Below are positions 13,583-57,093 of a DNA stretch of 64,000 nt, piece by piece. This stretch comes from Bacillus sp. ISL-7 (GTDB taxonomy: Bacteria; Bacillota; Bacilli; Bacillales_B; DSM-18226), in assembly GCF_018613065.1 (NCBI RefSeq), contig NZ_JAGGQW010000002.1, positions 39,869 to 103,868 on the forward strand, in the 5' to 3' direction. The notes under the pieces are model-generated. The model saw nothing but the letters and a program-made list of their open reading frames with translations. It was not told the origin of the DNA and did not search any database. Numbering within the stretch: the stretch's first letter is position 1; every line of letters starts with the position of its first letter. Position numbers and translations under genes: made by a program.

Positions 13583-14785
13583 ATGGTATTGGAATTAGCA
13601 AATCGTGTGAAGGCACTTACACCTTCAACAACATTAGCAATTACTGCAAAAGCAAAGGAATTAAAGGAACAAGGTGAAGACGTTATCGGTTTGGGAGCAG
13701 GTGAACCTGACTTTAATACTCCACAATATATATTAGATGCTGCGTCCCAATCTATGAAAGAAGGGCATACGAAGTATACCCCATCAGCAGGCTTACCTGC
13801 ATTAAAAAAAGCAATTATTAAGAAATTTGAAGCGGACCAAGGGTTAACATATAAACTGAATGAAATCATTGTAGGAAATGGAGCTAAACACGTTCTTTAT
13901 ACATTATTTCAAGTCCTATTAAATGATGGGGATGAGGTTATAATCCCTACTCCATATTGGGTCAGCTATCCAGAGCAAGTCAAATTAGCAGGCGGCGTTC
14001 CTGTGTATATCGAAGGATTAGAGCAAAATCAATTTAAAGTAACCCCAGAGCAATTAAAGAGCGCCATTACGAAAAATACGAAAGCTGTTATAATTAATTC
14101 ACCTAGCAATCCAACGGGTGTGTTGTATACAGCAGAAGAACTTTATGAGTTAGGCAAAGTTTGTCTTGAGGAAAATATTCTCATTGTTTCAGATGAAATT
14201 TATGAAAAGCTAGTTTATGGGGAAAATAAACATGTTTCGATCGCACAACTTTCTCCAGAATTTAAAAACCAAACCATTGTAATTAATGGCGTTTCTAAAT
14301 CACATTCGATGACAGGTTGGAGAATCGGGTACGCGGCTGGAAATAAAGTAATTATTGAGGCGATGACAAACCTCGCAAGTCATAGTACATCTAATCCGAC
14401 AACCACAGCCCAGTATGCAGCAATCGCTGCTTACAATGGCTCACAGCAGCCAGTAGAAGATATGCGCCAGGCATTTGAAAAAAGATTATCAATAATTTTT
14501 GATAAACTAGTAGCGATTCCCGGTGTAACATGTGTGAAACCGCAAGGAGCATTTTACCTTTATCCAAATGTAAGAAAAGCTGCTGAATTGACAGGATATC
14601 AAAATGTTGATGCTTTTGTTGAAGCCTTGCTGGTCGATGCCAAAGTCGCTGTTATCCCAGGTTCAGGCTTTGGAACTCCTGACAATATTCGACTCTCCTA
14701 TGCAACTTCTTTAGAATTATTGGAAAAAGCAGTGGAGAGAATCCACCAATTTGTTACATCCAAATCAAGCATTGTCAATAATTAA
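13583..14785 (+). CDS. aspB: aspartate aminotransferase (class I PLP enzyme)
   Basis: 400 residues. Interconverts aspartate/2-oxoglutarate and oxaloacetate/glutamate. Visible: LGAGEPDFNTP, NSPSNPTG, SDEIYEKLVY, and the PLP lysine in GVSKSHSMTGWRIGY, then the substrate Arg region RLSYA. GGAGG eight bases upstream selects the ATG at 13583 over the one at 13568. In B. subtilis asnS follows; here it is absent and a terminator follows instead. Confidence 0.95.
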   Translation: MVLELANRVKALTPSTTLAITAKAKELKEQGEDVIGLGAGEPDFNTPQYILDAASQSMKEGHTKYTPSAGLPALKKAIIKKFEADQGLTYKLNEIIVGNGAKHVLYTLFQVLLNDGDEVIIPTPYWVSYPEQVKLAGGVPVYIEGLEQNQFKVTPEQLKSAITKNTKAVIINSPSNPTGVLYTAEELYELGKVCLEENILIVSDEIYEKLVYGENKHVSIAQLSPEFKNQTIVINGVSKSHSMTGWRIGYAAGNKVIIEAMTNLASHSTSNPTTTAQYAAIAAYNGSQQPVEDMRQAFEKRLSIIFDKLVAIPGVTCVKPQGAFYLYPNVRKAAELTGYQNVDAFVEALLVDAKVAVIPGSGFGTPDNIRLSYATSLELLEKAVERIHQFVTSKSSIVNN

Positions 14786-16705: not shown

Positions 16706-19450
16706 TTAGGGTAATGTTGTAGGTGTACCTGAATTTGCTCCATTTACTGTCCCATTGTCGACCGGGGTATCTGGTGGAGTAGTAACGCCGTCATCTTGGT
16801 TGTCAGTACCTGTGCCATTCCCAGTACCATCACCATTACCAGTATCGTTGCCAGTACCATTCCCAGTACCAGTACCAGTACCAGTACCAGTACCAGTACC
16901 AGTACCAGTACCAGTACCAGTACCAGTACCAGTACCAGTACCATCGCCATTACCAGTACCAGTACCATCGCCATTACCGTTGCCATTACCAGTACCGTTG
17001 CCATTACCGGTACCATTCCCATTGCCGTTCCCGTTTCCATTTCCTGGATTTGTACCATTGCCAGGATTGGTATTACCTGGGTTTTCTTCTTGAATAGGTA
17101 GTGGTATGTCAATTGCAGCAGTTGCTGGATTACTAGTTCGATCACCACTGATTGCCACAATCGTGAAAGAATATTTAGTACCAGGTACTGCAGGGATGCT
17201 TAAAGATGTTTCTGCTTGATTATATTGCTTTTGACCAGTCCCGCTATTTACCGTTACAGAGAAAGTAACATTTGCCTCTTTTGAATTATTGTAATCCCAT
17301 GTTAAGGTAATATTTTTATTTACTTCATCATATTTGGCATTTAGTTTTTTCGGAGCATTCAGTTTGTCATACCTTTGGGAGACACGTTTAGGTGCATGAC
17401 CTTTCACAGCATACTCAGTAATAACTTGACTTCCAGGGGTATATTTACTTGCCAATACCGGCGGCATGGAGCCTCTTTCAATACTTACTCTTTGAACGCT
17501 GTTTGGCATAGTAAAGTCAGGTGTATCGATATCCTTTGATACATGTTCCATTAAGTTTTTAAAAATTAATTGGGCTAAACGTTGATTATTTCCGACCGCG
17601 TTGATAGGTGTACTTCGGTTTTTGTATCCTGTCCAAATAGACGCAGTGTAATTAGTTGTATATCCAGTAAACCAGGCATCAGGAACGGACCTGCTGCTCG
17701 GAATACCCCATTTTTGTATTTCCTCATCTGTATAATTCGTTGTACCGGTCTTACCGGCGATTGGAAGTCCGGGAACTTTTGCCCTTGTTCCTGTCCCAGG
17801 AGATACGAGGACACTTTTTAACATATCGGTAATCATAAAAGCGGTCGAATCTTTCATTACCACTTTTGGTTCAGGTTCTGTGCTAATAAAGGTTCCATCA
17901 CGCAACTTGATTTTTCTAATAGCATGTGGTTTTGTATAAATGCCATTATTGCCAAAGGCGCTATAGGCACCAGCCATTTCAAGTGGGGAAACCCCCGTTT
18001 TAAAACCGCCAATTGCGTAGGATTCAAAAATTTCTTTTAAAGGAATACCTAAACCAACTGCAAAGTCTTTCGCTTTTTCAAGACCAACCTGCTGTAGAGT
18101 CTGAACGGCTGGTGAGTTTCGTGATAATTGCAGTGCAGTTCTAATCGTCATCGGTCCTTTATAGCTTTGGTCCCAGTTCCCAAACTTTTTCCCAGATGAA
18201 TAGGTTATTGGTTTATCCTCAATCATTTCAAAGGTTCCCCAATTTAAATATTCAATCGCGGGAGCATAATCAAGCACAGGCTTGATTGTTGAACCTGGTT
18301 GACGTTGTGTATCGATGGCATAGTTAAACCCACGTTTTACTTTCTGGTTCCTTCCGCCTCCAATTGCCCGAATTTCTCCAGTTTTTGTATCAAGGAGAGC
18401 AACCCCAGCTTGGAATTCATCATCAGGATAATCAATAATGTCTGATTTATTAAGAATGTCTTCAACATATGATTGCGCATCTGGATCTAGAGTCGTATGG
18501 ATTGTTAAACCATCTGTAAAGATATCAAAATCAGATGTTTCTTTCACTTCATCAATAACTGCATCCACAAATGAATCAAAGGGTTTTTCATTAACTTTAC
18601 GTTGTTGTTCATTTAGAACGGTCGACTTAACTGAAACCTTTTTCGCATTTTCCATCTCTTTCTTAGAAATAAAACCATGCTGGTGCATTAACGTCAAGAC
18701 AATATTTCGTCTCTTCTCAGCTAAATCAGGATGATCGAATGGGTTATAATTATTAGGACTTTGCGGCATCCCAGCAATTTGGGCAGCCTCTGATAATGTT
18801 AAATCTTTTAATTCTTTTCCATAATAAATTTTTGCGGCAGTTGCAATACCGTGGCTATTTTCAGAAACATAAACCTTATTTACATACATCTCGAAAATCT
18901 GGTGTTTAGTATATTGCTGTTCAAGCTGATAAGAGAGCCAGGCTTCTTCGACTTTCCGCTTTAAGGTTTTTTCGGGAGTTAAAAATGAGTTTTTAACCAC
19001 TTGTTGTGTGATTGTGCTGGCACCTTCAGATCCAAATCCATGTTGGATATTAGCTAAAACAGCACCGCCTAATCTAATCGGGTCAATACCATGGTGTTTG
19101 TAGAAACGGTAATCCTCGGTTGCCAAAATGGCATTTTCAACTACTTGTGGTATGTCTTTGTAATTTACATATTCCCGATTAACTGCACCTACTTCAGTAA
19201 TCAACTTGTCATCTTTATCTAAAATCTTCGAAGGGATTGGATCTTTTAATAATTTTGGGTCAAGTACGGGAGCATCCTTTACTAAGTAGGCGAAAGTCCC
19301 CACTCCCGAAAGTATTCCAATAATACCAAGGGCCACTAGGGTTAGAAAAATTTTCTTTATTAATCCACCCGATTTTTTCTTGGTTTTTGGTTTACCTTTG
19401 GTTTGGAGTTTCTTTCGGCGCTCCTCTCTTGATTGGTACTGTTCTGACAT
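16706..19450 (-). CDS. ponA: penicillin-binding protein 1A/1B with long Gly-Asn/Gly-Thr tail
   Basis: 914 residues. Bifunctional class A PBP: cytoplasmic basic N-terminus, one membrane helix (about residues 35-60), GT51 transglycosylase (EDYRFYKHHGID, GASTITQQ, KVEEAWLSYQLE), then transpeptidase with STIKP, SRNSP and KTGT. A fibronectin-like domain follows (LTWDYNNSKEANVTFSV). The last about 110 residues are nearly pure Gly/Asn/Thr/Asp, encoded partly by 13 perfect hexamers. The ATG at 19450 has GAAGGAA upstream; a longer TTG start at 19483 abuts the recU stop and is less likely. It is downstream of recU, the usual recU-ponA pair. Confidence 0.95.
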   Translation of the reverse strand: MSEQYQSREERRKKLQTKGKPKTKKKSGGLIKKIFLTLVALGIIGILSGVGTFAYLVKDAPVLDPKLLKDPIPSKILDKDDKLITEVGAVNREYVNYKDIPQVVENAILATEDYRFYKHHGIDPIRLGGAVLANIQHGFGSEGASTITQQVVKNSFLTPEKTLKRKVEEAWLSYQLEQQYTKHQIFEMYVNKVYVSENSHGIATAAKIYYGKELKDLTLSEAAQIAGMPQSPNNYNPFDHPDLAEKRRNIVLTLMHQHGFISKKEMENAKKVSVKSTVLNEQQRKVNEKPFDSFVDAVIDEVKETSDFDIFTDGLTIHTTLDPDAQSYVEDILNKSDIIDYPDDEFQAGVALLDTKTGEIRAIGGGRNQKVKRGFNYAIDTQRQPGSTIKPVLDYAPAIEYLNWGTFEMIEDKPITYSSGKKFGNWDQSYKGPMTIRTALQLSRNSPAVQTLQQVGLEKAKDFAVGLGIPLKEIFESYAIGGFKTGVSPLEMAGAYSAFGNNGIYTKPHAIRKIKLRDGTFISTEPEPKVVMKDSTAFMITDMLKSVLVSPGTGTRAKVPGLPIAGKTGTTNYTDEEIQKWGIPSSRSVPDAWFTGYTTNYTASIWTGYKNRSTPINAVGNNQRLAQLIFKNLMEHVSKDIDTPDFTMPNSVQRVSIERGSMPPVLASKYTPGSQVITEYAVKGHAPKRVSQRYDKLNAPKKLNAKYDEVNKNITLTWDYNNSKEANVTFSVTVNSGTGQKQYNQAETSLSIPAVPGTKYSFTIVAISGDRTSNPATAAIDIPLPIQEENPGNTNPGNGTNPGNGNGNGNGNGTGNGNGTGNGNGNGDGTGTGNGDGTGTGTGTGTGTGTGTGTGTGTGTGTGNGTGNDTGNGDGTGNGTGTDNQDDGVTTPPDTPVDNGTVNGANSGTPTTLP
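16863..16940. repeat. 13 tandem copies of a hexamer within ponA
   Basis: CCAGTA (TACTGG on the coding strand) repeats 13 times without a mismatch and continues as degenerate copies on both sides (about 16800-17045). Each unit encodes Gly-Thr, so copy-number change lengthens or shortens the surface tail without shifting frame. Confidence 0.97.
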
Positions 19451-23430: not shown

Positions 23431-23441
23431 TAAAAACCCCA

Positions 23442-23573
23442 GTTGATTGAAGCGGAAGGCGCGAATACTCCTGCGGGAGGACGGGGCAGGGGAGACCCAA
23501 CAGGTGCTTAGCGCCGAGGAGGCTCCCCAGACCGCCCGCGGAAAGCGAAACCCCTGGAGTGGAAATCAACAGC
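23442..23573. repeat. long copy of intergenic repeat family A
   Basis: A GC-rich 132-base element between yppG and the heat-shock gene. It begins GTTGATTGAAGCGGAAGGCGC and ends with GGAAATCAAC, terminal inverted repeats. The centre contains GCGCCGAGGAGGCTCCCC and ACCGCCCGCGGAAAGCG. It matches the reverse complement of 63841-63940. An open frame from 23447 through it is not a gene. Confidence 0.9.
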
Positions 23574-23586
23574 TAAGTTTTAACAG

Positions 23587-24236: not shown

Positions 24237-24279
24237 TGTGATGTAAATCACATTAAATTTTTTGGTCGATTAGTATAGT
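24237..24279 (+). promoter_or_regulatory. Fnr-type site and promoter of hcp
   Basis: A perfect TGTGA-N6-TCACA at 24237-24252 followed by TATAGT at 24274-24279. The predicted start near 24286 places the site centre at -41.5, the classic activating position for Crp/Fnr proteins. Confidence 0.88.
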
Positions 24280-24313: not shown

Positions 24314-25612
24314 ATGTTCTGTTATCAATGTGAACAAACTCCATCTGGCGGCTGTAATGTCATCGGTGTGTGTGGTAAAGATGAAACCATTGCTAGCTTA
24401 CAAGACACGATTATTTTTGCATTAAAAGGAATTGCGGCCTATCGAACCCATGCTAATCAATTAGGATATACAGATCCCTTTGTCGATGCCACCACCCATG
24501 AAGCCCTTTATTTGACTTTAACGAATTCAAATTTTAATGTTCAAGAACATATCGACATGGCGATGAAAGTTGGCCAATCAGCAGTCCGCGTAATGGAAAT
24601 GCTAGATGAAGCTCATACAAAGCGTTTAGGTATTCCTGAGCCAATCCGGGTCAGCCAAAACAAAATTAAAGGAAAATGTATTATTGTTACAGGACACAAC
24701 TTATTTGCTTTAGAGGAACTATTAAAGAAAACAGAGGGAAAGGGTATCAATATCTATACGCACTCTGAAATGCTACCTGCGCACGGCTATCCAGCATTGA
24801 AGAAATATACTCATCTAAAAGGGAATATCGGAAAAGCTTGGTACGACCAGCGACGACTTTTTGAAAATTTCCCTGGAGCGATTCTAGCAACGACCAACTG
24901 TGTAATGCCAATTAAAGGGACTTATGCAGACAGGATGTTTACATATGAAGTAGCAGGTCTTGAAAATGTAGAGAAAATTATAAATGATGATTTTACACCA
25001 TTAATTAACCGAGCTTTAGAGCTTCCTGAAGCAGCAATTGATTCCGAAGAAACATTGTTAACAGGGTTCCATCATGAAACGGTTCTAGGCTTAGCACCTG
25101 AAGTAATTGATGCAGTCAAAGCTGGTAAAATCAAGCGATTCTTTGTTATCGCAGGCTGTGATGCACCGGGACCAGGCGGAAATTATTATCGTGAACTTGC
25201 CACTTCACTACCGCCAGAGACTGTTATATTAACAACCTCTTGTGGAAAATTCCGCTTTAATGACGTGGATTATGGTGTGGTGCCGGGAACCAATATTCCA
25301 CGGTATATAGATTTAGGTCAATGCAATAACTCTGGATCAACTGTTAAGATTGCTTTAGCACTTGCAGATGCATTTGGATGTGAAGTGAATGAACTGCCGG
25401 TCAGCATCGTGTTATCTTGGTTTGAACAAAAAGCAGTTGCTATTTTGCTTGGTTTATTTAGCTTAGGGATCCAGGATATCCGCATTGGCCCGAAGCCGCC
25501 TGAATTTATCTCTGAAGGGGTATTACAGGTCCTTCAGGACACCTTTAATCTAAAATTGATTGGAACAGCTAAAGAAGACATGGAAGACATGCTACAGCTC
25601 TCAATTAAATAA
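24314..25612 (+). CDS. hcp: hydroxylamine reductase / hybrid cluster protein
   Basis: 432 residues. Hybrid cluster proteins act as hydroxylamine or nitric oxide reductases under anoxic or nitrosative conditions. The N-terminal cluster motif C3-x2-C6-x7-C14-x5-C20 is complete, and the hybrid-cluster ligands lie in TGHNLFALEE, ATTNCVMP, VIAGCDAPG, LTTSCGKFRFND and LGQCNNSG. It is preceded by a perfect Fnr-type site at -41.5 and convergent with a Crp/Fnr gene, which suggests induction on oxygen limitation or NO. Confidence 0.96.
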   Translation: MFCYQCEQTPSGGCNVIGVCGKDETIASLQDTIIFALKGIAAYRTHANQLGYTDPFVDATTHEALYLTLTNSNFNVQEHIDMAMKVGQSAVRVMEMLDEAHTKRLGIPEPIRVSQNKIKGKCIIVTGHNLFALEELLKKTEGKGINIYTHSEMLPAHGYPALKKYTHLKGNIGKAWYDQRRLFENFPGAILATTNCVMPIKGTYADRMFTYEVAGLENVEKIINDDFTPLINRALELPEAAIDSEETLLTGFHHETVLGLAPEVIDAVKAGKIKRFFVIAGCDAPGPGGNYYRELATSLPPETVILTTSCGKFRFNDVDYGVVPGTNIPRYIDLGQCNNSGSTVKIALALADAFGCEVNELPVSIVLSWFEQKAVAILLGLFSLGIQDIRIGPKPPEFISEGVLQVLQDTFNLKLIGTAKEDMEDMLQLSIK

Positions 25613-25656: not shown

Positions 25657-26355
25657 TTAGATTAGATTAATTTCTTCCATTAGAATTTCAACATCTACAA
25701 TCATGTTGCCTTCTTCATCTACTTCTATTAATTCATCTTTTTTCATTTTTGTTAGCGTCCTGCTTATGGTTTCTCTTGTCGTGCCGATCATATTGGCAAG
25801 ATCCTTATTCGTGAATTCGGACTTTAAAAGGATCGTACCATCTTCTTGTTCTTTACCATGCTTCTGGGCGAGCCGAATCAGTAGTTTAATAATTTGTTCG
25901 TATGTGTTATTGAGAATCTTTTCTTCTAAACGATTTTGCAAATCAACGATTTTTTCTCCTAATACTTTAAAAACTTTAATACATAGTTCAGGGTTTTCAA
26001 TCAGTACAGTTTCAAATTTTGAAATTGGAACAGCAATAAGAGTTGAGGACTCAAGTACTTCTGCATAGGCTGGGTAATCGCCTTTTCTGAAAAAACCTAC
26101 ATGGGGAAACATCTCACCTTTTTTAGCAATGGCGACGATTTGTTCTTTGCCATTAATGTCACTTTTATAAATTTTAATTTTTCCGTCATAAATAAAATAG
26201 ACATTTTCAAGCGGGTCACCTTGGAGAAACACATGACTATGTTTTTTCCATTCCCTAGCAATAGCGATATCAGAGATTTTTGTTATTTCAAAATCATTCA
26301 ATTCACGAAAAAGGGTAAAATCAGCGAGCACCCTTTTAATTTCTTCAATTTTCAT
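25657..26355 (-). CDS. Crp/Fnr family transcriptional regulator
   Basis: 232 residues. Effector-binding beta-roll (FLQGDPLENVYFIYDGKIKIYK, GEMFPHVGFF), a long dimer helix (ENPELCIKVFKVLGEKIVDLQNRLEE) and a winged helix with IGTTRETISRTLTKM; the Arg-Glu and Ser-Arg contacts are those that read TGTGA half-sites. Only one cysteine is present, so an iron-sulphur sensor like FNR is unlikely; heme or another ligand is possible. Convergent to hcp and likely regulator of the four Fnr-type sites in this window (inference). Confidence 0.92.
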   Translation of the reverse strand: MKIEEIKRVLADFTLFRELNDFEITKISDIAIAREWKKHSHVFLQGDPLENVYFIYDGKIKIYKSDINGKEQIVAIAKKGEMFPHVGFFRKGDYPAYAEVLESSTLIAVPISKFETVLIENPELCIKVFKVLGEKIVDLQNRLEEKILNNTYEQIIKLLIRLAQKHGKEQEDGTILLKSEFTNKDLANMIGTTRETISRTLTKMKKDELIEVDEEGNMIVDVEILMEEINLI

Positions 26356-30564: not shown

Positions 30565-30975
30565 ATGTATCTTGGAACTAATTTTATGCCGCCAGTCATT
30601 CATCCGACTCAACAAATTGTGAACCATACGTTTTCAACGACAGTGGTTCCCCATATTCACCCTGTCCACACAACCACGGTAAATCACCATTTGTATCAAC
30701 ATAAACATTACTGTCCGCAAACTGCTTCTTGTGCTGAAGAGGTATGCAATCAGCAAATTAACTGCTGTAACCCATGTGCACCTACTGCAATGCCAGTGGC
30801 TATGCCTGCTGCAAATGCTTTACCAAATGCTATGCCAGGAATGGGTGGTCCAGGCTTTGGACCAGGAGGCCCAGGCTTTGGACCAGGAGGCCCAGGCTTT
30901 GGACCAGGAGGCCCAGGTTTTGGACCAGGAGGCCCAGGCTTTGCACCAGGACCATTCATGGGTCCTAGACGTTAA
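30565..30975 (+). CDS. cotD: spore coat protein CotD
   Basis: 136 residues. The first 75 have the CotD pattern: PPVIHPTQQIVNHTFSTTVVPHIHPVHTTTVNHH, His-rich, then a Cys-rich patch (YCPQTASCAEEVCNQQINCCNPC). The rest is a glycine/proline/phenylalanine tail made from five 21-base repeats. Start at the ATG 30565, eight bases after AAGGGAG. Located between mrfB and ypsA, close to its B. subtilis place. Inner coat protein, assembled in the mother cell. Confidence 0.9.
   Translation: MYLGTNFMPPVIHPTQQIVNHTFSTTVVPHIHPVHTTTVNHHLYQHKHYCPQTASCAEEVCNQQINCCNPCAPTAMPVAMPAANALPNAMPGMGGPGFGPGGPGFGPGGPGFGPGGPGFGPGGPGFAPGPFMGPRR
30847..30951. repeat. five tandem 21-base units within cotD
   Basis: Near-identical copies of a unit encoding Gly-Pro-Gly-Phe-Gly-Pro-Gly; the first and last copies each carry a single codon variation. 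Copy number can change without a frameshift. Confidence 0.9.
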
Positions 30976-35925: not shown

Positions 35926-35967
35926 AAAGCGGAAGGACCTATTGAGGGTTCTTCCGCTTTGTATTTT
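35926..35967. terminator. bidirectional terminator between ypvA and the DUF59 gene
   Basis: AAAGCGGAAG pairs with CTTCCGCTTT, with a T-rich tract on each side. Confidence 0.8.
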
Positions 35968-36268
35968 ATCTACCTAATAATCGTAGGCCTTCCGGTGTCA
36001 TTTTTTCTGGTGACCAGGCCGGCTCCCAGGCAAGATTTACTTCAACTTTTTTAGTTTCTTCCATTCCTTCCACACAATAACCTACCCCGCTGGTTATGCT
36101 GTCATGGAGTGGGCAGCCGGGTGTTGTTAACGTCATGGTAATAGTAACATCAGCGGTTTCTGTTACTTCTACATTATAAATTAAGCCTAGGTCAACGACA
36201 TTTATATTTAATTCAGGATCGTAAACACTCTTTAACTCAGTTAGGATCTTTTCTTTTATATTCATCAT
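35966..36268 (-). CDS. metal-sulfur cluster assembly factor (DUF59/PaaD-like)
   Basis: 100 residues. MIP18/PaaD fold: ILTELKSVYDPELNINVVDLGLIY, TLTTPGCPLHDSI and PAWSPEKMTPEGLRLLG. Family members help load Fe-S clusters or other metal centres. Start ambiguous between adjacent ATGs (36268, 36265), both just after GAGGTG. Last gene of a minus-strand run with the 12-TM protein and two DUF2249 genes, so it likely assists that module. Confidence 0.88.
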   Translation of the reverse strand: MMNIKEKILTELKSVYDPELNINVVDLGLIYNVEVTETADVTITMTLTTPGCPLHDSITSGVGYCVEGMEETKKVEVNLAWEPAWSPEKMTPEGLRLLGR

Positions 36269-36278
36269 AAACACCTCA

Positions 36279-37523
36279 CTATTTTTTTAAAACGCTTAGG
36301 ATATTAATTGCAATGATAATAAAAACAATCGAAAGTACGGACTGTCCAACATTAAAGAGAATAGCAATATGAAAAGCTAGAGCGCAAAAAACTATCAGTA
36401 TAGCGACGATAAATAAAGAAAATAACGGCATAACCATTTTTTCATTCATCATCTCTTTTATTGAAGGGACCTTATTTTTCCCGATTTCCTTACTGTATTT
36501 GTAAGTCCACCAAAGGAATGGAACTATTTTATATAAATAACTAACAATACTTAAGACAATCCAAAGTAATAAATAGGCATAGATAAGTGGACCAGTAAAA
36601 GTGTTAACATCATGATTCCAAAGCATAATAAAAGCTGCAAAATGAATTACATTTCCAAATCCAATAGCCACTAGTGTAAACGTAAAAGGTTTATCTAATG
36701 TTTTCTTCAATCTTTTTTTGATGATTATTCTGATATGCCAGCTGAAAATGGAAAATCCTATTAAAAGCAGCAAGCAACCAATTTTCAAAAGGGTATTGTT
36801 ATGAGTAAAGAAGGAAACCAGCGATACGACAAGACCAGAAAGGTAAGAAACATAAACATACTTAGCTTGAATCATCGGAAAACCATGAGATAGAGAAAAC
36901 ATTGGCACCATCTTATATGAAAATCCAAAAATTAACAATGTAAACCAACCAGTAACTCCCATTAATAAATGGGCTTTAAAGATCGATTGATAATTTTCAC
37001 CGGCAAATCCTGTTTTTAAGCAATAAATCAATGTAATCCCTAAAGAAATCGTAATAAATAAACAAACAAGGGACGAACCTACGAAAGCGGTAAGAATAGT
37101 TGGTTTTGCTTGTTTTTTTAGTGTTATAAACATTTGGAATAAAAACATTAAGATGCCGAGTAAAGTAAGGACACCAGGAATCATTGCATTTTGTGGTGAC
37201 CAATATAACATTGCTGAAAATGATGTTATACCAATCGCAGTAAGAAAAAATTGTATAAAACCAAATCTTTCATTCCATATTTTAGTTAGGAATGCAACAG
37301 GTACAAGCTGATACATCGCACCCATTGCTGCCATTAATGCCCACCCTAGAATTAATATATGGGCTGAAGACCAAATTACTGGGATTCTAAAGCTCCCATC
37401 CGCCATCAATTGACCATTTACTAAAAGAAGAATTTGCGAGAACACCAAGGCAATTAAACTAAACAAGATAAATGAAAATGGAAGCTTAATATTCGTTTCA
37501 CTTCCCATATTTTGAGGAAGCAT
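36279..37523 (-). CDS. 12-TM membrane protein related to heme-copper oxidase subunit I/NnrS-like
   Basis: 414 residues with about twelve hydrophobic helices. Histidines fall inside helices (SSAHILILGWALMAAMGAMY near residue 54; KAHLLMGVTGWF near 190; GNVIHFAAFI near 300), which is how heme ligands are placed in subunit I-like and NnrS-like proteins. A copper site like that of true oxidases is not evident. It is co-directional with DUF2249 and DUF59 genes and lies behind a Fnr-type site, so a role in NO or low-oxygen metabolism is likely (inference). Confidence 0.7.
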   Translation of the reverse strand: MLPQNMGSETNIKLPFSFILFSLIALVFSQILLLVNGQLMADGSFRIPVIWSSAHILILGWALMAAMGAMYQLVPVAFLTKIWNERFGFIQFFLTAIGITSFSAMLYWSPQNAMIPGVLTLLGILMFLFQMFITLKKQAKPTILTAFVGSSLVCLFITISLGITLIYCLKTGFAGENYQSIFKAHLLMGVTGWFTLLIFGFSYKMVPMFSLSHGFPMIQAKYVYVSYLSGLVVSLVSFFTHNNTLLKIGCLLLLIGFSIFSWHIRIIIKKRLKKTLDKPFTFTLVAIGFGNVIHFAAFIMLWNHDVNTFTGPLIYAYLLLWIVLSIVSYLYKIVPFLWWTYKYSKEIGKNKVPSIKEMMNEKMVMPLFSLFIVAILIVFCALAFHIAILFNVGQSVLSIVFIIIAINILSVLKK

Positions 37524-37537
37524 GACATTTCACCCTC

Positions 37538-37744
37538 TTACCGGAAGATTTCAATTTTAAAACTTCCGTCATTTTGTTGTTCTGTACGCTGCTGATAGCC
37601 TAATTCTTCTAATTGCTCATAAAGGAACATCGGCCTGCGGTCATTAATTATTGTCAAAACCTCATTTTCCCCAAGGGTTTCCAAGGCGGCCAAGGTTCTC
37701 ATCATTGGCTGTGGCGGTTCTAAACCTCGATTATCCAAAATCAT
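37538..37744 (-). CDS. DUF2249 (TusA-like) protein, copy 2
   Basis: 68 residues: LDNRGLEPPQPMMRTLAALETLGENEVLTIINDRRPMFLYEQLEELGY is the DUF2249 signature, a TusA-like fold. Ribosome site GGAGGG. The family often sits beside hemerythrin, NnrS or NO reductase genes; biochemical role unknown. Gap of 14 bases to the 12-TM gene. Confidence 0.85.
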   Translation of the reverse strand: MILDNRGLEPPQPMMRTLAALETLGENEVLTIINDRRPMFLYEQLEELGYQQRTEQQNDGSFKIEIFR

Positions 37745-37765
37745 GAATATTCCCTCCTTCTTCCA

Positions 37766-37999
37766 TTACGCTTTCTTTGTGAAAGTTACTTTCCAATGTT
37801 TACTCTCAATTTCTTCTTCTTCATGAGTAAAGCCTTTTGCTTTTAAAACCGCGAATAGTGGAACTGGATTAAAGGGGGCATGAAGGATAAATATATCATT
37901 ATCCTTTACTTCCTTAATAGCCTCCATTATTTTTTGAAAGGGTTCAATTTTATTCTTTAAATCCTCGCGTACATCAAGTTCGATAATTCGTTGTTCCAT
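37766..37999 (-). CDS. DUF2249 (TusA-like) protein, copy 1
   Basis: 77 residues: IIELDVREDLKNKIEPFQKIMEAIKEV then FILHAPFNPVPLFAVLKAKGF, a DUF2249-type fold with the Pro-x-Pro-Leu loop. GAGGAG precedes the ATG. It and the second copy differ strongly, so they are old paralogues. Directly downstream of the regulator remnant. Confidence 0.82.
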   Translation of the reverse strand: MEQRIIELDVREDLKNKIEPFQKIMEAIKEVKDNDIFILHAPFNPVPLFAVLKAKGFTHEEEEIESKHWKVTFTKKA

Positions 38000-38044: not shown

Positions 38045-38279
38045 TTAATAGAATAATTCCCGCTGAAGTGCTTCCCTGTCAATTAGATAAAAACCATCCT
38101 CATTCAAGGCAACATAGTCTTTCTTTTTCACATGATTGATCGTCCTGCATAAAAATAAACATCTTATGTTTATAAAAACGAGTTTGTGCAATCTTCACGA
38201 TGGGCTCTATTTCTTCTGTCGATAATTCTTTGAAGATTGGGACCTCAGATAATCTTTTTACTATGTCACCTTGCTTCAT
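38045..38279 (-). pseudogene. Crp/Fnr regulator with central deletion and frameshift
   Basis: The ATG at 38279 has a ribosome site and opens 47 residues typical of a Crp/Fnr N-terminus (MKQGDIVKRLSEVPIFKEL, then KHKMFIFMQDD). The frame then runs 14 odd residues to a stop at 38100. In another frame the same stretch encodes KKKDYVALNEDGFYLIDREA...ELFY and a stop at 38045, the usual ending of a Crp-type winged helix. About 150 residues between are missing. Both ends and the promoter are intact, so the deletion looks recent. Confidence 0.8.
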
Positions 38280-38316
38280 TAACATCACCTTCGTATTAGT
38301 AATTCTGTTTGACTAA

Positions 38317-38360
38317 ATTGTAGCAGTGTTTTCACTGTAATTATGTGACCTCCGTCATAG
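38317..38360 (-). promoter_or_regulatory. Fnr-type site and promoter of the regulator remnant/DUF2249 operon
   Basis: TGTGA-N6-TCATA at 38345-38360 and, on the minus strand, TACAAT (plus 38317-38322). The predicted start near 38310 puts the site centre at about -42. Confidence 0.75.
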
Positions 38361-38402
38361 ATAACTCGTTTTTATGAAAATAATTCTCAGTTGGAACTGT
38401 GG

Positions 38403-38418
38403 TGTGGGAAATATCACA
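38403..38418. promoter_or_regulatory. Fnr-type site before the qNOR-derived gene
   Basis: TGTGG-GAAATA-TCACA, one mismatch from the consensus, about 90 bases upstream of the gene. A TACAAT at 38463-38468 would put it near -64. A separate palindrome TTGTAA-AAG-TTACAA (38453-38467) overlaps that -10 and may be another operator. Confidence 0.65.
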
Positions 38419-38507
38419 GGAGTACGATGAGTTGCTTCACTGTGTGACGGTCTTGTAAAAGTTACAATACGATTTGTGACGACAAACTATGAAAGGGTGA
38501 ATTTGGA

Positions 38508-39479
38508 ATGGAAATACAACGGGGAACACCAACAAAAAAAGTGGTGAAGACAAATAAAAATGCCATGCTTAAATCAATATTAGTTATAACCATTTTACTG
38601 AGCTTCACGGTATTACTAGTAGGTGGCTATTGGATCTTTAAGGAGCAGGCACCAAGACCTGTAGAAGTTACCAATGAAAAGGGTGACGTTTTATTTACAA
38701 AAGATACAATTATGGGCGGTCAGGCCGTTTTTCAAAGGTACGGTTTAATGGATTATGGTACCGTTTTAGGTCACGGTTCTTATATGGGTCCCGATTATAC
38801 AGCGGAAGCTTTAAAGCTCTATACTGAAGGAATGCAAGATTTTAAAGCAAATGCTGAATTCGGTAAAAATTATGCTTCATTAAATGAAGATCAAAAATCT
38901 GTTATAAAAAATAAAGTAATAAAAGAAATGCGTAAAAATCGTTATGATAGCAATAGCGATACAATGAAACTAACAAATGCTCAAGCGTATGGACTTGAAA
39001 AAGTAAGAGAGTACTATAAAAAGATATTTACTAAAGTCGACGGTTGGGGCTTAACACCTGCTCACGGTCATGGATCCATGATGGGTGTGTACGGAATGTT
39101 TGCATGTGCAGTATTACTTTACTCATTGAGAAACATTGTAAAACCAGAGGCATGGAATCATAAGTGGATTAAATTTAGCTGTATCATGTTAAACGTTGGA
39201 CTTGCAGTAATGGTTTTCCTATCCTTGCTTCCTGTTGGTTTCATCCAAATCAAAGAAGCATTTAATCATGGTTATGATGCTTCTCGTTCAGCATCATTCC
39301 TACAAAAGGATATTGTTGAAACATTAAGAAAATGGCGTGCGGTGCCTGACACCATTTTCTTAATCGGAGTGGTAGTATTATTGTTATTCTGTACTAAAGC
39401 AATCTTTAATTTACGGAAGCCAACCCACAAAGAAGGAGAAAAACTTCCTGTTAAAGATCTTTCAATTGACGAAGATTAA
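38508..39479 (+). CDS. quinol-type nitric oxide reductase with the catalytic core deleted in frame
   Basis: 323 residues where qNOR is usually about 750-790. Residues 1-176 are a standard qNOR start: membrane helix 21-45, then FTKDTIMGGQAVFQRYGLMDYG with LGHGSYMGPDYTAEAL and the long extracellular helices. Residues 182-323 are the standard ending: LTPAHGHGSMMGVYGM, LNVGLAVMVFLSLLPVGF and the last helix. Everything between, with the FeB histidines and glutamate, is gone. The two heme histidines H186 and H188 remain. No stop codon breaks the frame. NO reduction by this product is not expected. Confidence 0.85.
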   Translation: MEIQRGTPTKKVVKTNKNAMLKSILVITILLSFTVLLVGGYWIFKEQAPRPVEVTNEKGDVLFTKDTIMGGQAVFQRYGLMDYGTVLGHGSYMGPDYTAEALKLYTEGMQDFKANAEFGKNYASLNEDQKSVIKNKVIKEMRKNRYDSNSDTMKLTNAQAYGLEKVREYYKKIFTKVDGWGLTPAHGHGSMMGVYGMFACAVLLYSLRNIVKPEAWNHKWIKFSCIMLNVGLAVMVFLSLLPVGFIQIKEAFNHGYDASRSASFLQKDIVETLRKWRAVPDTIFLIGVVVLLLFCTKAIFNLRKPTHKEGEKLPVKDLSIDED

Positions 39480-39483
39480 TAGA

Positions 39484-39517
39484 AAAATCCGCAAAGGTCA
39501 GCTTTGCGGATTTTCTT
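39484..39517. terminator. bidirectional terminator after the qNOR-derived gene
   Basis: AAAATCCGCAAAG pairs with CTTTGCGGATTTT around GTCAG; it also overlaps the 3' end of the opposite small gene. Confidence 0.85.
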
Positions 39518-39650
39518 TGTTCAAAATCAATATTTCGTGGCATTCAAAACAATAAATCTCTTTCTCCTCGGTATGGATACCGTTAAAGAAGCCATCTAAG
39601 CAATAAATTTCTTTACTGCAGGACTTACACTTTCCAATTAGTTCCTTCAT
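39498..39650 (-). CDS. small zinc-ribbon-like protein
   Basis: 50 residues with two Cys pairs, CKSC near residue 8-11 and CFEC at 34-37, the spacing of a zinc ribbon (KELIGKCKSCSKEIYC, then EEKEIYCFECHEI). A G-rich ribosome site (CAGGGGG) precedes the ATG. It overlaps the terminator arm and is divergent from the DUF2249 remnant. Not recognised by name. Confidence 0.6.
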   Translation of the reverse strand: MKELIGKCKSCSKEIYCLDGFFNGIHTEEKEIYCFECHEILILNKENPQS

Positions 39651-39688
39651 TGGTCATACCCCCTGTATTAACAAAATCATCTTATTGG

Positions 39689-39731
39689 TGTGATACCACT
39701 CACTAAGTTTTAGACCAAGTTTCCTTATAAT
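39689..39731 (+). promoter_or_regulatory. Fnr-type site and promoter of the DUF2249 remnant
   Basis: TGTGA-TACCAC-TCACT at 39689-39704 and a perfect TATAAT at 39726-39731. The predicted start near 39738 puts the site centre at -41.5. Confidence 0.85.
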
Positions 39732-39767
39732 AAAAAAGAAGTTAACAAACTAATGGGAGTGATAATA

Positions 39768-39944
39768 ATGCAAACTTACGCAAAAGTCATTAATGTACCA
39801 GATTTTCCACCACGTGAAAAACATCCAACAATCTTACTAACATCCTCTTTTCCCTATAAATTTATTTTACAACAGAAATTCATTCTGTTGTTTTTTATTC
39901 ACTTGTGCACAGTATTTTGCATACTTTTCAGAATAATGTGTTAA
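39768..39944 (+). pseudogene. DUF2249 gene truncated after about 22 residues
   Basis: The ATG at 39768 has GGGAGTGAT upstream. The first residues, KVINVPDFPPREKHPTIL, match the DUF2249 opening (D-x-PPREKHPxI). From about residue 23 the sequence loses all resemblance and runs into the terminator ACAACAGAA/TTCTGTTGT (39869-39897) and beyond. The remaining two thirds of the domain are absent, so it is read as a deletion remnant with intact promoter and terminator. Confidence 0.72.
39869..39897 (+). terminator. terminator of the truncated DUF2249 gene
   Basis: ACAACAGAA-ATTCA-TTCTGTTGT stem followed by TTTTTT, located inside the readthrough frame of the remnant. Confidence 0.8.
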
Positions 39945-39976
39945 AATTTTAATGGGAATTAAAAGGGGGGATTGCT

Positions 39977-41494
39977 TTGAAATATGAACTATTAGAAAAA
40001 GAATTTCTAGATTATGTGAAAAAGATGTCTGCCTACAACGAAGCACTTGGATTAGTTTATTGGGATCTAAGAACTGGGGCCCCGAAGCATGGGGTGGAAC
40101 AACGGTCCGAGGTAATTGGGATGTTATCGTCCGAAGTATTTAAAATGTCTACTTCTGAAGAGATGGCAGCATACATAGCTAATTTATCAAAACAATCACT
40201 GTCAGAAAAGACACGCAAAATCCTCGAAGAATGTAAAAAAGAATATGAAAGAAATAAAAAAATCCCAGCTGAAGAATACAAGGAATTTGTGATTCTCCAG
40301 TCAAAGGCAGAGAGTGTGTGGGAGGAAGCGAAGGGAAATTCGGATTTTGCCTCATTTAGTCCTTACTTAGAAAAGCTTGTCGCGATGACAAAAAAGTTTA
40401 TCACTTATTGGGGTCATGAAGAAAATAAATATGATGTGTTATTAGATATGTACGAACCTGGCATCACAATGAAAGTTTTAGATCAAGTATTTGGTGAATT
40501 AAGAGATAAAATAGTTCCTTTGGTTAAACAAATTTCAAAATCTCTACATAAACCAAAAACGGATTTTCTATTTGAAAAATTTCCAAAGGAAAAACAACGT
40601 GAATTTAGTTTGAAGATCCTTGACAAAATAGGTTATAACTTTCAAGCAGGAAGACTGGATGAAACCGTTCATCCTTTTGCAATTGGGTTAAATCCTGGCG
40701 ATGTCCGCGTTACCACCAAATATGACGAAAACGACTTTAGGACAGCAGTTTTTGGTACGATTCATGAAGGCGGTCATGCTTTATATGAACAGAATGTTTC
40801 AAAAGACTTGATTGGGACCCCTCTTTGTTCAGGAACATCAACTGGAATTCACGAATCTCAGTCTCTTTTTTATGAGAACATCCTTGGACGAAGTTTACCA
40901 TTTTGGAAAAATAACTACGATCTTTTAAAAGAGTATGCAAATGGTCAATTTGACCAAGTGGAAATTGAAGATTTCTACCGCGCTATAAACGAATCTAAAC
41001 CCTCATTTATTAGAATTGAAGCAGATGAATTAACATACCCGCTCCATGTTATTATCCGCTATGAAATTGAAAAAGGCTTATTCAATGATGAGATCGATGT
41101 GAAGGATTTACCGACTATTTGGAATGACAAGTACGAAGAATACTTAGGAATTCGTCCTGAAAATGATGCACAGGGAGTTCTTCAAGATGTCCATTGGGCA
41201 GGAGGCAGCTTTGGTTATTTTCCATCTTATGCCTTAGGCTACATGTATGCAGCACAATTTAAGCATAAAATGATGGATAATCTTCCAAATTTTGATCAAT
41301 TAGTCGAAGACGGTACCATTCTGCCGATAAAAGAATGGCTGACCGAAAATATCCACCAATATGGAAAAATGAAAAAACCGCTTGAAATCTTACAGGATGT
41401 TACAGGAGAAGGCCTAAATCCTAAATATTTAATTGATTATCTTTATGAGAAATATAGAAAGATTTATTTGTTAAATAAAAAAGGCTCATTGTGA
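39977..41494 (+). CDS. ypwA: carboxypeptidase M32 (YpwA, thermostable carboxypeptidase 1 type)
   Basis: 505-residue zinc metallocarboxypeptidase. The active site is HEGGHALYEQ (HExxH), with the downstream HESQS providing the third ligand and ADELTYPLHVIIRYE and the IRPENDAQGVLQDVHW segment conserved. It starts at TTG 39977, eight bases after AAGGGGGG; no in-frame ATG is close. Place after ypvA matches ypwA. Confidence 0.94.
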   Translation: MKYELLEKEFLDYVKKMSAYNEALGLVYWDLRTGAPKHGVEQRSEVIGMLSSEVFKMSTSEEMAAYIANLSKQSLSEKTRKILEECKKEYERNKKIPAEEYKEFVILQSKAESVWEEAKGNSDFASFSPYLEKLVAMTKKFITYWGHEENKYDVLLDMYEPGITMKVLDQVFGELRDKIVPLVKQISKSLHKPKTDFLFEKFPKEKQREFSLKILDKIGYNFQAGRLDETVHPFAIGLNPGDVRVTTKYDENDFRTAVFGTIHEGGHALYEQNVSKDLIGTPLCSGTSTGIHESQSLFYENILGRSLPFWKNNYDLLKEYANGQFDQVEIEDFYRAINESKPSFIRIEADELTYPLHVIIRYEIEKGLFNDEIDVKDLPTIWNDKYEEYLGIRPENDAQGVLQDVHWAGGSFGYFPSYALGYMYAAQFKHKMMDNLPNFDQLVEDGTILPIKEWLTENIHQYGKMKKPLEILQDVTGEGLNPKYLIDYLYEKYRKIYLLNKKGSL

Positions 41495-41517
41495 TTAAAG
41501 CAATGTAACAATGATAC

Positions 41518-41552
41518 AAAAAGGCTTCAATCGATGAGATTGAAGCCTTTTC
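41518..41552 (+). terminator. terminator after ypwA
   Basis: AAAAGGCTTCAATC pairs with GATTGAAGCCTTTT around a GATG loop. Confidence 0.9.
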
Positions 41553-41591
41553 CTATAAGATAAGAAAATATAAGTTTTTGAACTTAGATAA

Positions 41592-41733
41592 CTGTCTAGC
41601 TCCAGCGCCCAGCGGAATTCGCCCTTTTCCCTACGATAAGTCAAGCACGAATGCGCTAGCGCTCTCCGTGTTTCCTTTACTCAGTCAAAGTGTTCCAGTC
41701 CATACGCCGCTAAACGGGCGCTTGCGCTTTTCT
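41592..41733. repeat. intergenic repeat family B
   Basis: A GC-richer element starting GTCTAGCTCCAGCGCCCAGCG and ending CGCTAAACGGGCGCTTGCGC. Such AGCGCC/GGGCGCTTGCGC-ended elements recur in many Bacillus chromosomes. It touches the 3' end of the cbaA remnant. Confidence 0.7.
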
Positions 41734-41738
41734 TATTA

Positions 41739-42157
41739 CTATTTACTCCAAGTCTGAAATCCTTTTGAACCTGGAGGGGCATTTTGAATAATATCGATAA
41801 ACGGAATCGTGTAAGCAAAAAGAATAAGGGCTGCTGCAATTCCAAGCCACAATTTCCAGTTTTCAAATACCATTGGTGCTTTTTCTTCAAGATTTTCTGC
41901 AACAGCAACAGGGAATTCTTCTTCCCCTTTTGGAGCAAAGAAGGCAAGATTGATAAATATGATAATAACCAGAATAATTCCTAGGAATAAAATAGTCCCG
42001 CCGACTGCTTGAGCGATTTGATAAGGAATCCATTCTGCTGCTTGCTTTGCCCCTCCGTATGTAGAGAAAGCGGAACGTCTTGGACCGAAAAGTGGGCCAT
42101 TGAAAGCTTTGCATCACGAGGATCAACTTTTACTTTTGCTGCTGTCGAGTTAGCCAT
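41739..42157 (-). pseudogene. cbaA: ba3-type cytochrome c oxidase subunit I with central deletion
   Basis: The ATG at 42157 overlaps the subunit II stop by one base (TAATG). It encodes 23 residues of a normal subunit I start (MANSTAAKVKVDPRDAKLSM, then AHF). From about 42088 the reading frame shifts, and the sequence encodes the subunit I ending: GPRRSAFSTYGGAKQAAEW, IPYQIAQAVGGTILFLG, a last membrane helix, and APPGSKGFQTWSK with a stop at 41739. All central helices and heme/copper ligands, roughly 400 residues, are missing. The ends are well preserved, so the loss looks recent. Confidence 0.85.
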
Positions 42158-42633
42158 TATTTTACCACCTCAATCATCGAACTCATTAAATGGTGCCCAG
42201 CACCACAATATTCATTACAAACAATTAAATATTCACCAGCTTTATCAAACGTGGTTGTATATTCGCTGACATAACCAGGTTCAAGCATCATGTTAATATT
42301 TGTTCCAGCTACTTCAAACCCGTGGACAACATCTTTGGTTGTAGCAATAACTTTTACCTTTGCCCCAACTGGTACTTCCACTTTCACTGGATTATAGGAG
42401 AACGCTGCAGCTGCATATACTAATTCATAGTCCCAATCTTTACCTTCAACCTTATGTAATCCTGGTTTATCAAATGGTTTTGCTTGATCGACCTTATCCA
42501 CATTAATTGTAGTTAAACAACTTGGCGGCTTGTTACCAAGATAGAATGCGCTTACACCCACAACTGTCAAAAATACAACCAGTGCACTAATTCCGAAAGT
42601 TAGCCAAATCTTCTCGAACTTATGCATATGCAT
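42157..42633 (-). CDS. cbaB: ba3-type cytochrome c oxidase subunit II
   Basis: 158 residues: one membrane helix (about residues 8-31) and a CuA cupredoxin domain outside the cell. CuA ligands are complete: H in VVHGFEV and CNEYCGAGHHLM. Start at the ATG 42633, seven bases after GGGGGA; another ATG follows at 42627. Its subunit I partner directly downstream is a remnant, so this protein has no visible partner in the window. Confidence 0.9.
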   Translation of the reverse strand: MHMHKFEKIWLTFGISALVVFLTVVGVSAFYLGNKPPSCLTTINVDKVDQAKPFDKPGLHKVEGKDWDYELVYAAAAFSYNPVKVEVPVGAKVKVIATTKDVVHGFEVAGTNINMMLEPGYVSEYTTTFDKAGEYLIVCNEYCGAGHHLMSSMIEVVK

Positions 42634-42822
42634 AATTCTTTCCCCCTTCAATTATTAAAAGCGTTCAACAAATAGGATCACACTTTACCTGTGATAAAAG
42701 TAATTGAATAATCATTCACACACGAAATTAACCACCCTTTTTGAAATGAATGTCACACTTTGGAATCCTATAAATATGATATTAAGAAATTCATATTTTC
42801 CTTCAGAAAAGAGTGTGTTTTT

Positions 42823-54652: not shown

Positions 54653-54668
54653 AGGGACGTTCTTTTAT
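54637..54668. terminator. bidirectional terminator
   Basis: ACGTCCCTTT-TCAT-AAAGGGACGT, then TCTTTT; lies between converging genes. Confidence 0.85.
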
Positions 54669-55831
54669 TTTTCAGATACATTTTGGTTATATAATTGGAG
54701 GATACGGTTAGCACTTTTTTCCCATGTGAAACTTTCCTTCACTCTATCTATACTGTTAAGACCTAACCTTTTAATTCTTTTGGGATTATTTAAGAGCTGA
54801 ATAACACAATTGGATAGTTCCACTTCAATGTTTTGAGTATTGATCAAATACCCCGTCCTGCCATGTTCAATAACCTCTGGCATTCCCCCAATATTCGTTG
54901 CGATCACGGGGACACCACATGCCATTGCCTCCACATTCACTAATCCAAATGCTTCATGTCCAATTGAGGGTACTAATACAATCTCTGCCGCCTCAAACCA
55001 AATGTGGATTTCCGCATGTGGAATAAACGACATAAACTTGACATGCTCTGGGAAATCCTTTGCTAACGCATGCAATTTATCAACATAGCTTGTTCTTCTT
55101 TCTGAACCATAAAAGGCGCTTCCGGCAATAATTAATATGGTGTCAGGCACCGCTTGAATAATGGAAGGCATCGCTTGAAGTATTTTATGAATGCCCTTTA
55201 TTTTTCTTAAACGTCCGACAAATAGGATGATTTTCCTTCCTTCGAGGTTTAATTGTTTAATAAAATTCTCTATTTTACTTTTTTGATCGATGGACCATTT
55301 CGAATGAAATTGTGTTATATCCACACCTAAATAATTAACAATGACTTTATTTTCCTCACAACCAGTTTGAACAATTAAATAGTTTTTAAGAAAATGGCTG
55401 TTAACAATGATCTTATCAGCTTGATGAAGACAACTAATTAACTCTTCCTTTTCAATATGTGGACTTGAAATAAACATGGTCGAGTGCAGTGACAACCAAA
55501 TTTGAGCTTTTTGAAACTTGTTCCGAATGATGGGAATATATTTAGGGCGATTTTCAATTTGGATGATATCAGGATTGATTCTTGATAACTTAGGAATGAC
55601 CTTTGTGAGGTACCTTGTCCAATTTTGATAAGGAAACCGGATAAAAGAAATATTTCCTTGGTTTTCAGTAGAGGCCATTCCTTTAGCCTTTTTCCCAAAT
55701 ATTGTGAAATCAACATCGTTTTGAAGAATGTTTGTTTGCATTTCAACCACTGTTTCAACTGAACTTGCACGAGAGGATGGAATAGGGAAGGAACCAGGGG
55801 TAATAATGGCTACCTTTGGTTTAGTTCTCAT
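54665..55831 (-). CDS. GT4 glycosyltransferase, CotSA-like
   Basis: 388 residues, GT-B fold. VAIITPGSFPIPSSRASSVE at the N-terminus and [33 protein letters not shown] and GGMPEVIEHGRTGYL at the C-terminus. CotSA in B. subtilis is a coat glycosyltransferase of this type. The ATG at 55831 follows AGAGGTG. It is opposite in direction to its ATP-grasp neighbours, sharing a 176-base upstream region with the next one. Confidence 0.85.
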   Translation of the reverse strand: MRTKPKVAIITPGSFPIPSSRASSVETVVEMQTNILQNDVDFTIFGKKAKGMASTENQGNISFIRFPYQNWTRYLTKVIPKLSRINPDIIQIENRPKYIPIIRNKFQKAQIWLSLHSTMFISSPHIEKEELISCLHQADKIIVNSHFLKNYLIVQTGCEENKVIVNYLGVDITQFHSKWSIDQKSKIENFIKQLNLEGRKIILFVGRLRKIKGIHKILQAMPSIIQAVPDTILIIAGSAFYGSERRTSYVDKLHALAKDFPEHVKFMSFIPHAEIHIWFEAAEIVLVPSIGHEAFGLVNVEAMACGVPVIATNIGGMPEVIEHGRTGYLINTQNIEVELSNCVIQLLNNPKRIKRLGLNSIDRVKESFTWEKSANRILQLYNQNVSEK

Positions 55832-56007
55832 AAAGCAAAACACCTCTTAGATTAATGTAAGTTAGTGTATTCACGTATTTAATGAATGTTTCAAAATAAT
55901 TCGGGTTTTTATCTCTCCAAATATACAACTTTTGCATTTAATAGTACGAAAGAAGTTTATTTATTTAACCTGAAAGTAAACCCTATTAATAAGGCGGGGA
56001 AAATAGC

Positions 56008-57093
56008 TTGGAACAGCAATTTATTGGAATTATAATCAGCTCGCAATTATATAGAGAACTTGACCGCGGTAATCAACCAAAAGTCTTGGCTTTCTATGAG
56101 GAAGGGGGCAAAATAAATAATCTGATTCCTGTTTATCTTCGTTTGGAGGATTTACAGCCTGGTGAACCAGAGACAACGGGTTTTGTGATGAATATCAACG
56201 GTGAGTATCAGAAGTACACTATACCTAAACCATTTGTGATTCATAACAGAGGGTATCATTGGACGAAGGATGCCAAGAAACAGATAAAAATGCTACTAGC
56301 TGAAGGCTTAATCATTTTTAATGAATGGAATCAATATGGGAAACACAAAGCTCATAAGTTATTAATGGAAAGTGAAGAGATTAGACCACACCTCCCAGAA
56401 ACGGTTCGATTCAATCTTGGTAATATGGTCAAAATGATGGGAAAACATAGGGAGTTAATCATAAAACCAAACAGTGGAACATTTGGAAAACGTAACATGA
56501 GAGCAACACGCCTTAACGATACAGAGTGGTTGTTATCCTATCCCCAACAAGACATGTGGCAAGAAGAAATGTATTCTGCGGACCAATTACCTTTGAAGAT
56601 AGGATCTTTGCTCACAAGCGGGCTGTATATAATTCAAGAGAGAATTCAACTTGCAGAATATAATAATAATCCATTTGACCTTCGGGTAACCGTCCAACGA
56701 AATAAGGATGGAGAATGGCAAGTGACAGGGATGGTGGGGAAAGTAGCAAAAACAGGCAGCTTTGTTACAAATGTTGCTAGAGGTGGTATCTGCATTTCTC
56801 TTGAAGATATCCTTAGAAGCCTTCCATACCTTGATGAAAAACAGGTCGTAGCTGACGTGAAACAGGTATCACTAATGGTTGCCAAACAGATGGGCAATCA
56901 AATTGATAACCTAGCAGATCTTGGGCTTGATGTCGGGATTACAGCAGATGGTTTTCCAATGTTTATTGAATGTAATGCGCGAGATCTAAGGTTAGCATTT
57001 CGTCATGCTTTAATGTTCGAAACATGGCGAGAAACCTACATTACCCCAATATGCTATGGGAAATATTTGTTGACTAAAAGAAATAGCCAATAA
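56008..57093 (+). CDS. YheC/YheD family ATP-grasp protein
   Basis: 361 residues, TTG start after GGCGGGG. Body: FIGIIISSQLYREL, IHNRGYHW, then the ATP-grasp: IIKPNSGTFGKRNMRAT, YIIQERIQLAEYNNNPFDLRVTVQR, NVARGG, LADLGLDVGITADG and IECNARDLRLAF. Complete nucleotide- and metal-binding residues (Lys, Asp-Arg, Glu-x-Asn) are present. Likely spore-coat associated. It starts the plus-strand run of three ATP-grasp genes. Confidence 0.85.
   Translation: MEQQFIGIIISSQLYRELDRGNQPKVLAFYEEGGKINNLIPVYLRLEDLQPGEPETTGFVMNINGEYQKYTIPKPFVIHNRGYHWTKDAKKQIKMLLAEGLIIFNEWNQYGKHKAHKLLMESEEIRPHLPETVRFNLGNMVKMMGKHRELIIKPNSGTFGKRNMRATRLNDTEWLLSYPQQDMWQEEMYSADQLPLKIGSLLTSGLYIIQERIQLAEYNNNPFDLRVTVQRNKDGEWQVTGMVGKVAKTGSFVTNVARGGICISLEDILRSLPYLDEKQVVADVKQVSLMVAKQMGNQIDNLADLGLDVGITADGFPMFIECNARDLRLAFRHALMFETWRETYITPICYGKYLLTKRNSQ

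Follow-up and report, generated by a model that had tools for sequence, protein, structure and literature searches.

The 64,000-nucleotide stretch of the Bacillus sp. ISL-7 genome analysed here (contig NZ_JAGGQW010000002.1, positions 39,869 to 103,868; hereafter the window) carries a group of broken genes for low-oxygen and nitric oxide (NO) respiration, which is very probably an ordinary pseudogene cluster produced by recent, lineage-specific deletions in a Neobacillus-type bacterium. Five deletions of 217-1392 bp affect a Crp/Fnr-family regulator, a quinol NO reductase (qNOR), a DUF2249 gene and the operon of a ba3-type oxidase. The damaged features are as follows.

38045-38288, minus strand: pseudogene of a Crp/Fnr-family regulator, frame-shifted, with 458 bp lost at 38138-38146.
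38508-39479, plus strand: pseudogene of a NorB-type qNOR, with 464 codons (1392 bp) lost in frame at 39049/39050.
39753-39835, plus strand: 5' remnant of a DUF2249 gene; the 3' end with the stop codon is missing, a loss of about 217 bp downstream of 39835.
41739-42157, minus strand: pseudogene of ba3-type (CbaA) oxidase subunit I, frame-shifted, with 1246 bp lost at about 42087/42088.
42157-42651, minus strand: ba3 oxidase subunit II (CbaB), with an intact frame and without its upstream region and partner subunits.
42676-42677: junction of the fifth deletion, a loss of 331 bp comprising the subunit IIa gene and the upstream region with an FNR-like box.

Bacillus sp. OV166 (G001; locus L010), which has 37% of sampled 31-letter words in common with the window, was used as the nearest relative. 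In a BLAST comparison of the whole window the main matching blocks were 94.7-98.6% identical, and the match was nearly unbroken except for four intragenic gaps and one gap upstream of the ba3 subunit II gene. For the next nearest genomes, those of Neobacillus drentensis, Bacillus sp. AFS006103 and Neobacillus sp. OS1-33, the blocks were 84-92% identical over the part compared. All of the stretches missing from the window are present in the six relatives aligned at this locus (L010-L015, 6/6), and polarisation with the outgroup G038 placed all five deletions on the window branch. A preliminary description of this DNA had reported truncations of the Crp/Fnr, qNOR, DUF2249 and ba3 subunit I genes, and these are real, the relatives holding the missing stretches; its count of damage was too low, as the 331-bp deletion had been overlooked. 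The loss of these genes by several deletions, one of the two explanations that it offered, is well supported at this locus. With G038 again as outgroup, no further deletion of at least 100 bp confined to the window branch was found in the other ~59 kb, and the segments that remain lie in the same order and orientation as in G001.

The intact Crp/Fnr protein of G001 (L010) has 233 residues; in the window its frame is shifted, as 458 bp is not a multiple of three. This size was not taken from the multiple alignment, which misplaced the first junction. The interval originally assigned to the truncated regulator (38045-38279) contains two stops when read through, and the remnant extends to 38288. 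The qNOR remnant has 323 residues compared with 787 in the intact enzyme and keeps only positions 342-411 of the PF00115 profile, below the curated cut-off, so most of the catalytic domain is absent and the activity has presumably been lost. Since the NorB cytochrome-c-like domain is still matched, a domain- or name-based annotation could still call a qNOR here, and denitrification would be over-predicted. The start codon of the DUF2249 remnant lies at 39753 or 39768, and the size of its deletion was taken from L011-L013, because G001 carries an insertion nearby. The deletion in ba3 subunit I measures 1246 bp by alignment and 1247 by BLAST offset, and the last codon of the remnant has also been changed to a stop. 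On its minus strand the 331-bp stretch removed by the fifth deletion contains most of the coding sequence for a 49-residue protein matching CoxIIa (PF08113). The ba3 operon has thus been deprived of the subunit IIa gene, the upstream region and the middle of subunit I, and only subunit II remains open; the statement that the promoters were intact is wrong for this operon, whose upstream region was taken by the 331-bp deletion.

FNR-like boxes were searched for in the 64-kb window and in ~21.5 kb each of L010, L011 and L013, using TGTGAN6TCACA, which we take to be the consensus, with at most one mismatch. Each of the three relatives contains only four sites, all upstream of the units damaged in the window: two between Crp/Fnr and qNOR, one upstream of DUF2249 and one upstream of the ba3 operon. 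The last, which has one mismatch in the relatives, was removed from the window by the 331-bp deletion, and the others are retained.

38344-38359 and 38403-38418: two FNR-like boxes between the Crp/Fnr and qNOR remnants, one mismatch each.
39689-39704: FNR-like box upstream of the DUF2249 remnant, one mismatch.

In all, the window has five sites, namely those at three of the relatives' four places and those at 24237 and 13606; in five mononucleotide-shuffled versions of the window the number ranged from 1 to 3. The site at 13606, with one mismatch, lies outside the damaged locus. The ypwA-like gene located between the damaged units has no FNR-like box. Because every damaged unit has a box and the spared ypwA has none, the damaged units resemble a single segment of a regulon, in which the boxes are putative regulatory sites.

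The remnants also differ from intact genes in their substitutions. The qNOR remnant contains nine private residues, six of them at columns that are invariant in 30 intact homologues of the genus, whereas each of the latter has 0-4 private residues at otherwise invariant columns. It is the position of the changes, not their number, that stands out, and this suggests a drifting pseudogene. Nonsynonymous (N) and synonymous (S) changes were counted on the window branch, excluding 30 bases beside block ends, with eight intact genes as the reference (subunit II excluded). The remnants carry 14 N and 8 S changes versus 34 N and 56 S in the reference genes (Fisher p 0.03), and qNOR alone has a ratio of 10:3 (p 0.014), one codon accounting for two changes. 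These counts agree weakly with relaxed constraint on the remnants. The preliminary description had argued that point mutations, which it held to be absent, would be expected from random decay as well; point changes were found in the remnants, so this argument turns against it. Another relative's qNOR fragment, P0003 (189 residues), departs from other family members at the same DGW position but by a different sequence, perhaps owing to a frameshift at a G run.

Damage to the qNOR locus is not confined to the window. A search of 61 genomes of the genus with the intact qNOR gave 31 near full-length copies (at least 84% identity), seven broken or remnant copies (G002, G010, G026, G043, G052, G053 and G055; the breaks in G026 and G053 are possibly sequencing frameshifts), two genomes with only a more distant copy (G016 and G047), and 21 without a match. 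At loci L121, L124 and L125 (of G010, G052 and G055, respectively) the block from DUF59 to qNOR is gone, with ends that differ in each; part of DUF59 is kept beside the qNOR tail, and the ba3 operon matches in full or nearly so. As other genomes of the genus hold broken copies and differently bounded block deletions, loss of the module at the qNOR locus is recurrent. Searched with ba3 subunit I, each of the 61 genomes gave between 3 and 7 matches, counting distant ones, so other oxidases are likely to be present in the organism of the window.

We propose that the low-oxygen/NO module, comprising Crp/Fnr, qNOR, DUF2249 and the ba3 operon with their common FNR-like boxes, may have become useless or costly in one lineage, that five ordinary illegitimate deletions would then have inactivated every unit, sparing ypwA, and that the remnants drifted afterwards. 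In this reading the boxes would be functional, and the module would have fallen out of use before the deletions arose one by one. The locus offers a clean snapshot of the loss of a respiratory module, in which each unit of a box-sharing neighbourhood has been struck and the unrelated gene between them spared. The junctions are of the ordinary illegitimate kind, for which slippage or end joining would suffice. The preliminary description suggested looking for short direct repeats. The first junction (Crp/Fnr) has a perfect one of 9 bp at 38138-38146; at the other four, strict homology amounts to 0-1 bp, and a short or imperfect match adjoins two of these. Comparison of the five junctions by eye revealed no sequence common to them and suggested no recombinase. 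No precise-excision process or other new mechanism is needed.

Several results weigh against this explanation. Of ~67.6 kb of ancestral sequence, a span of ~8.5 kb takes up all five window-branch deletions and the other ~59 kb has none of at least 100 bp, which is tighter than uniform placement; a simulation gave p ~0.0009, a post hoc value since the locus was picked for its deletions. A ba3 subunit I orthologue (at least 85% identity) is present in 60 of the 61 genus genomes, although the copy of G026 begins at query residue 20 and looks frame-shifted; the loss of this oxidase is accordingly less expected, not routine. The tight clustering of the deletions and the loss of a nearly universal oxidase are what is unusual here. 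As to drift, the nine private residues of the qNOR remnant are unremarkable as a total, intact homologues having 0-16. Three of the qNOR changes are also found in P0002, a relative's protein that is 99% identical over the shared part; as this protein runs on past the junction, they predate the deletion, and when they are left out p rises to 0.13 (all remnants) and 0.09 (qNOR alone). On the G001 branch the same regions show 4 N and 7 S changes, and the difference between the window and G001 branches has a p of 0.16, so the weakness of this support is itself a point on the opposite side.

The strongest competitor, to which we nevertheless assign only a small probability, is a single complex episode within ~8 kb, in which end joining after multiple breaks, or repeated switching of template, removed all five stretches at once. 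The clustering, the lack of other large deletions on the window branch and the 0-1 bp of strict homology at four junctions speak for it, and Ku, which is needed for end joining, is present in all five relatives searched (5/5). However, a blind event need not have struck every unit with a box once (the ba3 operon twice) while leaving ypwA untouched; one junction lies at a 9-bp repeat, the kept segments are unchanged in order and orientation, and stepwise loss of a useless module explains the pattern without a new process. If it did take place, the episode would be a small bacterial counterpart of clustered rearrangement that by chance silenced a whole FNR-box regulon segment.

It is less likely still that the source genome is intact and that the junctions arose as assembly, amplification or read-chimera artefacts. 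Database copies of two short proteins of the window (P0001 and P0064) are singletons located on one 103,868-bp contig: the P0001 fusion has one member, the other 62 matches covering at most 57% of the query, and the P0064 fusion likewise has one, with two other matches covering 76%. The ba3 remnant had no match in the protein search. These singletons, and the weak N:S support for drift, are compatible with an artefact. Assembler k-mers are, however, longer than 9 bp, the upper limit of the perfect junction repeats, and all five junctions fall in one functional group. Furthermore, the private changes of qNOR at invariant sites outnumber those of any of the 30 intact genes, which tells against both an artefact of assembly and a short conserved protein. 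Collapse during assembly was rejected as unlikely, given the short junction repeats together with these changes.

The preliminary description had also raised, beside an assembly process, precise excision acting on haem-copper genes. Two of the four genes belong to the haem-copper family and keep both ends, but Crp/Fnr and DUF2249 do not belong to it, the sizes and frames of the deletions differ, and the qNOR remnant is changed at invariant sites. A search for the missing centres in 72,556 plasmid records, phage records not being covered, gave distant or short matches only: three for the qNOR centre, covering 4-5% of the query, and one for the ba3 subunit I centre, to a Geobacillus homologue at 65%. 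The two exact junction sequences tested were each found in 0/61 genus genomes. Programmed or site-specific excision, rejected for the lack of an evident common junction sequence, has a very small probability. Conserved mini-proteins of exactly these short lengths, which would have accounted for the truncated forms, were rejected because the fusions are singletons and the same fusion was found in no other protein.

Several genes around the damaged units are open.

39977-41494, plus strand: ypwA-like M32 carboxypeptidase, full length as previously described, located between damaged genes.
35966-37999, minus strand: a DUF59 gene, a COX1/NnrS-like membrane protein and two DUF2249 genes, downstream of the Crp/Fnr remnant.

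Farther away, a gene of the Hcp-like (hybrid-cluster/hydroxylamine reductase) family (24314-25612) is open and has a perfect TGTGAN6TCACA box upstream at 24237; beside it, on the opposite strand, is a second open Crp/Fnr gene (25657-26355). As the Hcp-like gene and the genes downstream of the Crp/Fnr remnant are open, not all NO-related genes have decayed. The G001 branch has one deletion of at least 100 bp, a loss of 442 bp in another gene; the corresponding open reading frame of the window (54665-55843, 392 residues, perhaps a glycosyltransferase) is open and serves to gauge the background rate of deletion. Otherwise the window departs from G001 by insertions or deletions of 1-14 bp, by changes in tandem repeats that reach 42 bp at most, and by dispersed repeats that only one of the two genomes contains. 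Tandem-repeat copy number differs inside the open reading frames at 16819-17039 and 30861-30921. A short dispersed repeat at 23438-23585 has matches at two other positions of the G001 stretch, and another at 63841-63931 matches the insertion that G001 carries between its DUF2249 gene and ypwA. Divergence from G001 peaks at 56000-57000, with 116 mismatches per kb compared with 11-63 in each of the remaining bins of 1 kb.

A literature search found nothing on a five-deletion cluster of this kind. The nearest parallel is the same locus of Neobacillus (Bacillus) bataviensis LMG 21833 (contig55; L016/L120). According to Heylen and Keltjens (2012; PMC3475470), qnorB2 at this locus is a pseudogene with a 217-residue deletion, the second qnorB is truncated, and the authors judged both qNorBs corrupted and inactive; a third ba3-type enzyme of that organism (BABA_08951-08956) is described there as most likely an oxidase. 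By its locus-tag number and neighbours, it is probably the orthologue of the ba3 oxidase broken in the window. The two loci are thus alike in having a qNOR pseudogene with a large internal deletion. In N. bataviensis, however, full-length matches free of stops were obtained for Crp/Fnr, for the three DUF2249 genes and for the ba3 operon, and it is qNOR that has extra stops, while the window has five deletions spread over four units. A 2024 paper on Bacillota denitrification genotypes (PMC11388526) states that complete denitrifiers commonly have three NOR types.

In G010, G052 and G055 the same NO module (DUF59-NnrS-DUF2249-Fnr-qNOR) has been lost, leaving the qNOR tail beside ypwA, but apparently by one deletion each and with ba3 kept, whereas in the window the module was broken piecemeal and ba3 was damaged as well. 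The genus of the window is largely free-living, unlike the organisms of Shigella-type reductive decay. The loss of pathway genes by mutation is nevertheless a likeness to bacterial reductive decay in general, of which Shigella is an example (PMC3218036). The present case concerns one locus and differs in that its genes were disabled by deletions rather than by stops or insertion elements.

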